This document shows, piece after piece, positions 3,156 to 22,942 of a stretch of DNA of 22,942 nucleotides. A program made the position numbers and the translations under genes. The notes below the pieces were generated by a model. It ran no database searches and had not been told where the DNA came from. It saw only the letters and a program-made list of their open reading frames with translations. Positions within the stretch are counted from its first letter, which is position 1, and each line of letters opens with the position of its first letter. The stretch comes from Nitrospinota bacterium (GTDB taxonomy: Bacteria > Nitrospinota > Nitrospinia > JACRGO01), in NCBI GenBank assembly GCA_016212295.1, contig JACRGO010000168.1:1-22942 (forward strand), in the 5' to 3' direction.

Positions 3156-3261
3156 CCCCTGTGCATGGCTTCCGTCCGTTTCAAGTGGATCAGGCCAGAA
3201 GACCGGTCATTTTTCGCGAATCCTGGCCCATAAAAAAATTTAAAAAAAATAAAAATTTTAC

Positions 3262-3290
3262 TTGCAATTCAGAAAATTTTATTGGATAAT
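3262..3290 (+). promoter_or_regulatory. Predicted sigma-70-type promoter upstream of the cold-shock gene
   Basis: TTGCAA (3262-3267) and GATAAT (3285-3290) are separated by exactly 17 bases inside an AT-rich tract. Initiation near 3297 would give either a 5' leader of about 170 bases for the cold-shock gene or a separate RNA of about 100 bases ending at the hairpin at 3352-3396. Confidence 0.5.
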
Positions 3291-3351
3291 ATCCATCGTA
3301 AGGATGAAGTTTCGTTTCTGATGTTATATTTTTCTATCAATAACTTGAAAA

Positions 3352-3396
3352 AACCGCACGGGAATAAATCTCACAAATTCCTGCGCGGTTTTTTTC
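3352..3396 (+). terminator. Terminator-like hairpin inside the cold-shock gene leader
   Basis: Arms 3352-3364 and 3378-3390 pair over 13 positions with one mismatch and one G-T wobble around a 13-base loop, and are followed by a T-run at 3391-3395. This has the form of an intrinsic terminator, yet it lies between the predicted promoter and the cold-shock start codon at 3466. It may end a small RNA or attenuate the cold-shock transcript. Confidence 0.6.
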
Positions 3397-3465
3397 GTTT
3401 GAGGCAGACTTTTCAGATTCCTTAGCTTCAAATTTTTTCTTACGTAAGGTGGTGATTAAGAAACT

Positions 3466-3663
3466 ATGAAGGGAACAGTAAAGTGGTTCAACAGCTCCAA
3501 GGGGTATGGCTTCATTACTCCGGAGTCAGGGGAAGATGTGTTCGTTCACTTTTCCGCCATTCAGGGTGATGGATACAAAACCCTGGAAGAAGGCCAAGCG
3601 GTGGAATTCGAAGTGAAGCAGGGTCCAAAGGGTCCTCAGGCTGCCAACGTTCAGCCGGCTTAG
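3466..3663 (+). CDS. Cold-shock protein (CspA/CspB family)
   Basis: A 65-residue single cold-shock domain, the usual length for the family. It is a small cytoplasmic beta-barrel that binds single-stranded RNA and DNA and acts as an RNA chaperone. It begins [18 protein letters not shown], containing RNP1 (KGYGFI), followed by RNP2 (VFVHFSAI) and the typical end ([11 protein letters not shown]). The ATG is preceded by TAAGGTGGTGA (3445-3455), a near-consensus ribosome site. The gene stands alone, with its own predicted promoter at 3262-3290 and a strong terminator at 3685-3719. A terminator-like hairpin in the leader (3352-3396) suggests RNA-level control, in line with the long regulated leaders known for csp genes. 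Which csp paralogue it is cannot be told from sequence alone. Confidence 0.96.
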
Positions 3664-3684
3664 AGACATCATCTAACGAAAAAG

Positions 3685-3719
3685 CCCGCGTCGATTCAGT
3701 TCGGCGCGGGTTTTTTTTT
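3685..3719 (+). terminator. Intrinsic terminator of the cold-shock gene
   Basis: Arms CCCGCGTCGA (3685-3694) and TCGGCGCGGG (3701-3710) pair over 10 positions with one T-G wobble around a 6-base loop. A run of nine T follows at 3711-3719, starting 21 bases after the cold-shock stop codon. Confidence 0.9.
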
Positions 3720-21124: not shown

Positions 21125-21604
21125 TCAGAGTACGCCTCTAGGCGGCAGGAGTTTTTCGATGAGAGATTGGAGTTTTTCCATGAGGGATTTAAGGAATGAA
21201 ATTTCCTCTTTTTGCGCTTGAAGGGTGGCTTCGATTTGCGTCAATTTATTCTGCTGATTCCAGAGAATCCGCCCCATGATTCCCATCAAGGAAAGGGCAA
21301 CGGTAATGAAAAGGCCAAACATCCATTGGAGGATATCGAACCGTTTGTTGATGTCATCAAACCGTTTGTTGATGTCATCAAACCGTTTGTTGGTTGACTC
21401 CTTTAAATCATTGATTTGCTGCTGAATGGCTCTCTGTCCTTCATCTAACCTTTTTATCTCCGTCTTTAATTCCTTGATATCGCCCCGCAAATCGGATAAA
21501 TTTTCTATGATTTCCCTGTCGCTTATCCTAGGCGCCGTTTCCACAGCAAAAGCCGGAGCGGCAAACAGGAACATGAAAAATAAAAATGCCCATGGCCTTT
21601 TCAT
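21125..21604 (-). CDS. Secreted/membrane-anchored coiled-coil protein, copy 1
   Basis: I do not recognise a named family. The 159 residues comprise a signal peptide (MKRPWAFLFFMFLFAAPAFA, likely cut before VETAP), the conserved RISDREII, and a coiled coil. In the coiled coil the heptad NKRFDDI is repeated (RFDDINKRFDDINKRFD), encoded by a perfect 21-bp direct repeat (21339-21359 and 21360-21380, plus a partial copy to 21392). A transmembrane helix (FGLFITVALSLMGIMGRILW) and a second coiled coil (LTQIEATLQAQKEEISFLKS) follow, ending LLPPRGVL. An upstream in-frame ATG at 21634 exists, but starting at 21604 gives the signal peptide its normal form and matches the paralogue. The nearly identical gene at 22149-22604 shows a recent duplication. 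A periplasm-to-cytoplasm oligomeric scaffold is possible; function is unknown. Confidence 0.82.
   Translation of the reverse strand: MKRPWAFLFFMFLFAAPAFAVETAPRISDREIIENLSDLRGDIKELKTEIKRLDEGQRAIQQQINDLKESTNKRFDDINKRFDDINKRFDILQWMFGLFITVALSLMGIMGRILWNQQNKLTQIEATLQAQKEEISFLKSLMEKLQSLIEKLLPPRGVL
21339..21392 (-). repeat. 21-bp tandem repeat coding a coiled-coil heptad
   Basis: Two perfect 21-base copies (21339-21359 and 21360-21380) and a 12-base partial copy. One unit codes exactly one heptad (NKRFDDI), so copy-number change keeps both reading frame and coiled-coil register. Confidence 0.9.
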
Positions 21605-21798
21605 ACACCCATTGTATTGGCCGTGATTATCCATGTCAAGGAGTATTTTTGATTTTTGATTTTGGATTTGAAATTTTAAATCGCCAATCCGAATTCAGCT
21701 TCAATTGACAATTGGAAATGGCCAACTCCCCTGGCGCCTGGTAATTGATTCTGTCCCCTGCCACTTGATAACTGCCTTTCTGATTACAAATCCGGTAG

Positions 21799-21952
21799 CC
21801 GTTCACTGGTTCAGGGTTCAAGGTTGAAAAAGGGCGTGAATCACGGCAATATTGCAAGGGATTTTTAGGGCATTCCACCTTGGTTATAATGCCGCTCAAC
21901 AAAAATCTGCGTGGGTACAAACCCGGAACCCTGAACCTGAAACCGTGAACGG
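21799..21952. repeat. Imperfect inverted repeat CCGTTCAC...GTGAACGG
   Basis: The left arm, 21799-21825 (CCGTTCACTGGTTCAGGGTT...), and the right arm, 21920-21952 (ending AAACCGTGAACGG), are imperfect reverse complements, both built from GGTTCAGGGTTC words. About 95 bases of non-coding sequence lie between them. The rest of the 21635-21979 gap is AT-rich word repeats plus a segment (about 21750-21775) resembling 16798-16818. Confidence 0.65.
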
Positions 21953-21988
21953 GTACCAAATCCGAGACGGGCGGAACGTGAAAAATAT

Positions 21989-22125
21989 CAGCAATTCCCG
22001 GTGAAAAAGCGAGATTGCCGCGGCGCTGAAAGGCGCGCCTCGCAATGACATCACGAAAACCATTTTTGCCATTGCGAGCGAAGCGAAGCAATTTCAAGCC
22101 CATGCCAATTCACCGGGAATTGCTG
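21989..22125. mobile_element. MITE-like element with 16-bp terminal inverted repeats and 9-bp target duplication
   Basis: A 137-bp non-coding element. Its ends are perfect inverted repeats, CAGCAATTCCCGGTGA (21989-22004) and TCACCGGGAATTGCTG (22110-22125). They are directly flanked on both sides by the same 9 bases, GAAAAATAT (21980-21988 and 22126-22134), the pattern left by transposition. Inside are two inverted copies of an ATTGCGAG...GAAGCAAT-type repeat (about 22009-22050 and 22069-22096). It has no transposase gene, so it would need one supplied in trans. It lies 14 bases past the stop codon of the coiled-coil gene at 22149, where its stem could also end transcription. Confidence 0.82.
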
Positions 22126-22148
22126 GAAAAATATGGAACGACGGGCGG

Positions 22149-22604
22149 CTACAAAACCCCTTTTGGCGGCAGGAGTTTTTCAATGAGGGACTGGAGTTTT
22201 TCGATGAGGGATTTAAGGAATGAGAGTTCCTCTTTTTGCGCTTCAAGGGTGGCTTCGATTTGCGTCAATTTCTTCTGCTGATTCCAGAGTATCCTGCCCA
22301 TGATTCCAAAGATGGAAAGGGCGACCGTAATGAAAAGACCGAGCATCCACTGGAGGACGTCAAGACGTTTATTGGTTGACTCCTGAAGATCATCAAACCG
22401 TCTGTTGACATCGTCAAAGCGTCTGTTGACGGAATTATTCATGTCGTCAAACCGCTGCTCAAGGGCCTTCTGTCCGGCCTTTAATTCTGCCAGGCTTTCT
22501 ATTATCTCCCTGTCTGATATCCTGGGAGCGGTTTCCACGGCAAAGGCTGAGGCATGGCAAAGGCCAATGAAAAGAAGGAATAAAAAGGCAAGTGTCTTCC
22601 TCAT
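22149..22604 (-). CDS. Secreted/membrane-anchored coiled-coil protein, copy 2
   Basis: A 151-residue paralogue of the protein at 21125-21604 with the same order of parts. These are a signal peptide (MRKTLAFLFLLFIGLCHASA, cut after AFA), VETAPRISDREII, a coiled coil with diverged heptads (NRRFDDVNRRFDDLQESTNK), a transmembrane helix (LGLFITVALSIFGIMGRILW) and a C-terminal coiled coil ending LLPPKGVL. The tail from LQWM onward is nearly identical to copy 1, while the first coiled coil differs in sequence and heptad number. The change since duplication is thus concentrated in the presumed periplasmic part. The gap between the copies holds only repeats and the MITE-like element. Function is unknown; the conserved tail suggests a constant cytoplasmic contact. 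Confidence 0.82.
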   Translation of the reverse strand: MRKTLAFLFLLFIGLCHASAFAVETAPRISDREIIESLAELKAGQKALEQRFDDMNNSVNRRFDDVNRRFDDLQESTNKRLDVLQWMLGLFITVALSIFGIMGRILWNQQKKLTQIEATLEAQKEELSFLKSLIEKLQSLIEKLLPPKGVL

Positions 22605-22828
22605 GGATCAAGTTTAAACGGAATAGCGAGGGGTGTCAACAGGAAATTCAGATTTCGGATTTCGGATCTTAAATTTTAAATTTTCTTGGCTTGGCCTGCC
22701 GCGCTCCGCTTGGCGGCAGGCAGGGATTAAAAATCCAGAAGGCATGGCGTTACAGATTGCAAATCTGTAACGAGCGGAAACTTAAGTCAAAAGCAGACTT
22801 GACCACGGTAAATTTGTTCTACCATATC
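22605..22828. repeat. Intergenic palindromes upstream of coiled-coil copy 2
   Basis: This stretch shows AT-rich GATTTCGGATTTCGGAT words at about 22650-22668. CCTGCCGC (22695-22702) pairs with GCGGCAGG (22713-22720). CGTTACAGATT (22748-22758) and AATCTGTAACG (22762-22772) form a perfect 11-bp hairpin with a 3-base loop. I see no gene here; the palindromes look like short dispersed repeats. Confidence 0.6.
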
Positions 22829-22942
22829 TCACACGCCATTAAGGGTGCAGGAGTTTTTTGTCATGCGCAGGTAATCGAAGACCAACCTGGCGCTACGGTG
22901 TAGTTGCCTCATCTTTTGCGCGACATTGGAGACACCTTTGGA
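22829..22942 (-). CDS. Possible 3' end of an unrecognised gene (partial)
   Basis: A frame stays open from the window edge for 37 codons to a TGA at 22829-22831. It reads VAQKMRQLHRSARLVFDYLR in the middle and ends KNSCTLNGV. The start lies outside the window. The composition is protein-like (basic, helical), but the length is too short to be sure, and the surroundings are repeat-rich. It could be the remnant of a mobile gene, a real gene end, or chance. I do not recognise a family. Confidence 0.25.
   Translation of the reverse strand, partial: SKGVSNVAQKMRQLHRSARLVFDYLRMTKNSCTLNGV

Follow-up and report, generated by a model that had tools for sequence, protein, structure and literature searches.

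A cross-phylum MITE family with a REP-like core and a candidate transposase family

We identified a 137-bp segment in the window (the whole 22,942-nucleotide stretch of Nitrospinota DNA analysed here) that is very probably a MITE moved by a DDE transposase of an ISNCY-annotated family that recognises its ends, with a REP-like pair carried as cargo. Observation establishes the inverted ends with their duplications, the presence of dispersed copies, an insertion sequence that shares these ends, and 9-bp duplications at relatives of this insertion sequence. Ends common to a MITE and to a transposase-bearing insertion sequence provide a route by which these very common palindromic repeats may be copied around genomes.

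The window element and its copies in the same genome

The segment (21989-22125) has perfect 16-bp inverted ends, with a 9-bp repeat abutting both of them without a gap, and on direct reading the original prediction of perfect ends and an intact duplication around 137 bp proved exact. The estimated chance of a perfect 16-bp inverted pair with perfect 9-bp flanks, at this spacing, in the window is approximately 1e-8, and a search of the window for further sites of the 16-mer, allowing up to three mismatches, returned none. The interior contains two inverted repeat units, as had also been claimed, with GAGATTGC...CTCGCAATGACA on the left and TGCCATTGCGAGCGAAGCGAAGCAATTTC on the right. The segment has the features that characterise a MITE, as it is short and non-coding (no credible gene), has inverted ends, a target duplication and dispersed copies, and an autonomous element with matching ends exists in genome G736 as an insertion sequence of 1,809 bp. 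An ORF at 21636-22103, which starts within the element, was discarded as a gene, being a mechanical ORF with no support.

Table 1. Positions of the parts of the MITE in the window
Feature	Position	Strand	Remarks
Left target-site duplication copy, GAAAAATAT	21980..21988	.	Read directly
MITE, 137 bp	21989..22125	+	4 further full-length copies in genome; family n=61 distinct elements
Left terminal inverted repeat, CAGCAATTCCCGGTGA	21989..22004	+	Both ends of the G736 1,809-bp insertion sequence have the same 16 bp, with T at position 10
Left core unit, long form, GAGATTGCC...GGCGCGCCTCGCAATGACA read on +	22012..22050, approximate	-	TGTC head towards centre; alignment
Conserved inter-unit spacer, TCACGAAAACCATTTTTGC, family consensus TTACGAAAA	22051..22069, approximate	.	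Alignment
Right core unit, short form, TGCCATTGCGAGCGAAGCGAAGCAATTTC, family consensus TGTCATTGCGAGCGAAGCGAAGCAATCTC	22068..22096, approximate	+	Alignment
Right terminal inverted repeat, TCACCGGGAATTGCTG	22110..22125	-	Read directly; mismatch search of window
Right target-site duplication copy, GAAAAATAT	22126..22134	.	Read directly

A BLAST search with the 137 bp against its own 3.74-Mb genome recovered four more full-length copies, at 94-96%, and one truncated copy, and when up to two mismatches are allowed the 16-bp end has 29 sites in this genome, compared with 2 sites for the reversed control. Copies C225, C108 and C147 have perfect 9-bp duplications of their own, which differ from each other (AAAGTAATT, GATTTAAAT and CCTGAATAG) and lie at unrelated sites, and copy C127 matches in 8/9 positions. 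In C147, C127 and C226 the same ends enclose a sister core, with ATTCTGA...GAATCTC in place of ATTGCGAG...GCAATCTC. Other same-ended copies with 9-bp duplications, which had been proposed as a check, are therefore present in the genome itself, and they were also found in the survey described below. The suggestion of recent movement holds only moderately: the ends and the duplication are intact, but the copies are 4-6% apart in sequence and the window copy has a slightly decayed core. No empty site was found for the window copy; in the related gene copies, similarity is confined to 22139 and the sequence to its right, and their left flank is unrelated.

A second MITE adjoins the first one. It is 162 bp long (21795-21956), is bounded by GTAGCCGTTCAC...GTGAACGGGTAC and, together with its flanking 8-bp duplication, which is perfect (CAAATCCG), occupies 21787-21964, and its kind of ends (GTAACCGTTCACGG) also bounds a REP-like core in genome G199.

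A family of same-ended elements across phyla

When the genomes of approximately 85,000 species were scanned for the end sequence with GAGATT close behind it, 73 stretches were obtained, mainly from Deltaproteobacteria/Desulfobacterales and Nitrospirae MAGs, and also from Nitrospinae and Riflebacteria; a few of them are probably due to chance, about 3 being expected by estimate. We collected 61 distinct two-ended elements from unrelated genomes (Nitrospirota, Desulfobacterota, Nitrospinota and others), the carriers being mostly fragmented MAGs. An exact abutting duplication of 9 bp is present in 23/61, with one case each of 10 bp and 7 bp, and none of 5, 6, 8 or 11-13 bp was observed among the 61 elements, a further 10 of which match in 8/9 flank positions. 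Flanks matching in at least 8/9 positions occur in register in 33/61 elements, at an offset of 1 in three and at offsets of 2, 3 or 5 in none, and when flanks were cross-paired between elements as a control such a match was obtained in 1/3,660.

In the collection, 31/61 have a length of 136 or 137 bp, and the 33 aligned elements follow a common plan, consisting of an end, approximately 10 variable bases, the long unit, a TTACGAAAA-type spacer, the short unit, approximately 12 variable bases and the other end; in longer members the additional sequence lies chiefly within the units. There are also same-ended elements that have no core, of 54 bp (L095/L143, genome G006) and 214 bp (L096/L124, genome G009), and since these keep intact, perfect 9-bp duplications, the core is dispensable for insertion and the ends suffice.

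The 54-bp element of L143 (719-772) consists of the two ends and 22 bases, with the perfect 9-bp duplication GCTTTAGCC, and is perhaps near the smallest mobile form. In genome G198, contigs L264 (2933-2986) and L267 (1-54) terminate in an identical 54-base piece (CAGCAATTCTCGGTGAACCATAAGATGTC...) of an element with these ends, which probably represents the collapse of a larger element that is missing from the assembly; a search of Nitrospirota with the G198 sub-end sequence retrieved only G198 itself.

Core units and their resemblance to REPs

The core units form a head-to-head pair of one long and one short unit, and each unit combines an ATT...AAT outer stem with a TGTC tag and a tail; the head-to-head arrangement is found in all aligned cores. 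The TGTC tag belongs to the family consensus, and the right unit of the window copy has TGCC. For CGTC REPs, TGTC variants, head-to-head dimers and conserved spacers have been reported (Di Nocera et al. 2013, PMC3733652), and the core of the window family resembles them in its TGTC tag, CGTC REPs having a CGTC, TGTC or CCTC tag at one end, in the ATT...AAT start of the stem, in the head-to-head pairing of two unlike units across a conserved spacer, and in its distribution over many phyla. In contrast, CGTC REPs have a stem of 8-9 bp and a CCA-like tail, whereas the short units of the window family have an outer stem of about 5 bp with an inner stem of 2 bp, and a CTC tail. Because stem length and tail are unlike the published consensus, we call the core units REP-like and not members of the CGTC REPs. 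The published CGTC REPs are without a known transposase or enclosing ends of the kind seen in the window element; they "apparently lack a dedicated transposase", and their means of movement was left open (PMC3733652). The original prediction that the ATTGCGAG-type repeat can travel inside a transposable element is supported, the repeat being the core of the MITE.

It is improbable, in our view, that the element is a selected regulatory structure, such as an mRNA 3' hairpin or a terminator, for which mobility would be incidental. It folds strongly, as RNA or as DNA, and far better than its shuffles (z -6.3 to -7.4), but this stability is owed largely to the inverted ends, and a single unit has no advantage in folding over shuffled sequence. 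The core architecture is kept across phyla, yet the paired changes in the core mainly correspond to one split into two core types (8/33 sequences), and the location of the window copy, 15 bp beyond the stop of the minus-strand gene at 22149-22604, has to be weighed against the different sites and orientations of the other copies. As the paired changes are mainly one split and single units are unremarkable relative to shuffles, selection for RNA structure is not claimed.

Core units also occur outside the 16-bp ends, amounting in a hand count to 5/16 canonical units in the own genome, 24/56 in G195 and approximately 57/65 in G199. Twelve pairs were read, and many of them lie within different inverted ends. 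In G199 the orientation of the pair is reversed, with tail facing tail, and the enclosing ends are of the GTAACCGTTCACGG type, with an 8-bp duplication that is perfect in L333 (AAATTTGG) and matches in 7/8 positions in three others, and in G195 a core pair lies between AGAGACTGTGTCACAATG-type ends. From these few loci, different end families are seen to carry similar pairs, so that the repeat pair has the appearance of a module open to exchange, and MITE cores are pointed to as such modules. We suggest tentatively, at somewhat less than even odds, that several unrelated transposons each took up a TGTC/CGTC-type pair as MITE core, in either orientation, that such hitchhiking is the main way in which these very widespread intergenic repeats spread and cross phyla, and that solo repeats are remnants of such elements.

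Loci L331-L339, L341 and L342 hold REP-like pairs within other inverted ends, namely GTAACCGTTCACGG (with 8-bp duplications), TCAAAAAGYTCGG and AGAGACTGTGTCACAATG. IS66 was considered as a source of GTAACCGTTCAC ends and rejected, as these are absent from both IS66 loci found. At L207 (5409-6901, Nitrospirae MAG PEUB01) an IS110-type transposase gene, identified by sequence reading, starts beside a MITE core unit, across an N run, a possible IS110-type insertion into the REP-like unit.

The core pair could itself be the mobile entity, moved as single-stranded DNA by a tyrosine (RAYT/IS200-type) transposase, as GTAG REPs are thought to be (PMC3733652), with the outer ends being accidental or a preferred target. 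The units lying outside these ends in the own genome, G195 and G199 would fit such a process, but at least some of them lie within other inverted ends. The 9-bp duplication is placed exactly at the outer ends and not at the core, it is also found at same-ended elements without a core, and IS200-type transposition is not known to produce a target duplication. We thus regard movement of the core by itself as highly improbable.

An autonomous insertion sequence and the candidate transposase

The full insertion sequence with the same ends that had been proposed as a check on the MITE was found in a search of 247 relatives of G195, the most copy-rich genome. In one of them, G736, perfect CAGCAATTCTCGGTGAACATG ends lie 1,809 bp apart, and the ends match those of the window element in 16/16 positions, allowing Y at position 10. 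This insertion sequence encodes a 391-amino-acid protein with a match to PF01609 (Pfam DDE_Tnp_1) of 24.8 bits, for a cut-off of 23, and its homologues on sequenced plasmids, at 33-50% identity, include one annotated as "ISNCY family transposase". No NCBIfam model matched the transposase above cut-off, and the ISNCY name rests on one RefSeq annotation. In the seven homologues compared, residues D89, D178 and E300 do not vary, and they fit a D-D-E triad. The insertion sequences around the homologues have CAGCAATTATTGGTGA at both the beginning and the end in Saccharobesus, and CAGCAATTCTCATTTT in Gloeothece, Calothrix and Nostoc. Those of Saccharobesus, Calothrix and Nostoc are flanked by 9-bp duplications without mismatch, the three sequences being TAAATAAAG, GAAATATAC and GGTAATCCC. 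Given the shared ends and the 9-bp duplications on both sides, the autonomous family and the MITE agree in end sequence and in duplication length. The IS4-like parent initially envisaged is not upheld, since the transposase is of the DDE_Tnp_1 type with an ISNCY-annotated homologue and is not a classical IS4 relative.

In the mechanism that we propose, a transposase of the ISNCY-annotated insertion-sequence family would recognise the CAGCAATTCYCGGTGA ends, excise the element and insert it at a staggered 9-bp cut, giving rise to the 9-bp duplication. The cargo between the ends would be the head-to-head, TGTC-tagged REP-like palindromes, one long and one short, with their conserved TTACGAAA spacer. 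We infer that the window copy was mobilised in trans by a G736-type transposase, with the core as a passenger that plays no part in the mechanism; the REP-MITEs and the G736 insertion sequence have only the 16-bp ends in common. The copy of the G736 insertion sequence that was read has no target duplication, possibly as a result of recombination between copies.

No relative of the G736 transposase is present among the five PF01609 loci of the own genome, the assembly of which is approximately 90% complete and broken at repeats, and none of the PF01609 loci of nine genomes has such ends. As a positive control, the end-finder recovered ISAs1 copies with 10-bp duplications. End pairs 250-5000 bp apart at the first loci include none with a duplication, and the ORFs adjoining single ends that were read are housekeeping or other genes, except for one IS110-type transposase. 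Viral contigs gave four single-end matches, with no visible element and no transposase relatives.

We give hardly any credence to the ends belonging to another transposase family such as ISAs1, which starts with CAG, duplicates 8-10 bp, and has copies with CAG ends and 10-bp duplications in one genome with chance-level end matches (L292, L294), since its transposase (PF13808) is missing from 12 of the 14 genomes tested, as well as from the own genome, and its CAGGGCAAACGC ends do not match the CAGCAATTCTCGGTGA ends. ISAs1 was rejected as parent, with the PF13808 transposase being absent from most carriers.

Relation to known systems

The closest autonomous counterparts of the window element are the ISNCY-annotated, CAGCAATT-ended insertion sequences of the D-D-E family (Gloeothece WP_013335080.1 and the Saccharobesus, Calothrix and Nostoc plasmid homologues). 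These cyanobacterial and Alteromonadaceae sequences have the first 8 end bases and the exact 9-bp duplication in common with the window element, but they are 1.6-1.9 kb long and carry a transposase, whereas the window element is gene-free and shares only the ends. A REP inside a MITE is also found in QMITE2 of Coxiella burnetii, which holds a GTAG REP (PMC5896051). QMITE2 is approximately 150-190 bp long, with long ends and 7-11 bp duplications, and unlike the window family it has a GTAG-type REP, is found in one main genus, and its mobilising transposase was not identified. With this precedent, and with some REP dimers already noted inside palindromes in the 2013 survey (PMC3733652), a REP-bearing MITE is a known kind of element. 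What is new is the cross-phylum family, the likely transposase family and an explanation for part of these repeats. In the open-licence literature searched, no account was found of the cross-phylum family, of the candidate transposase family or of the link to TGTC-tagged repeats, and a search for the element sequences themselves gave nothing relevant.

If the likeness to CGTC REPs holds, at least part of this class can be assigned specific ends, a length of duplication and a candidate family of transposases, which makes the movement of these repeats testable at the bench. The results are also a warning that the intergenic repeats of the common ATTGCGAG/ATTCTGA type seen in environmental genomes can belong to mobile elements.

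Other features of the window

Four other contigs of this genome, C69, C32, C147 and C149, have at their ends a sequence that matches the last ~148 bases of the window (22795-22942) at 98-100%, and the assembly breaks here because of a collapsed repeat. The genes at 22149-22604 and 21125-21634 (minus strand) encode small coiled-coil-like proteins, and related copies with 74-91% DNA identity are found in the genome (C147, C168, C124, C156 and C57), some of them near contig ends. At 3244-3719 there is a match to the Rfam cspA thermoregulator of 80.6 bits, for a gathering threshold of 78, which is probably driven by a cold-shock protein gene.
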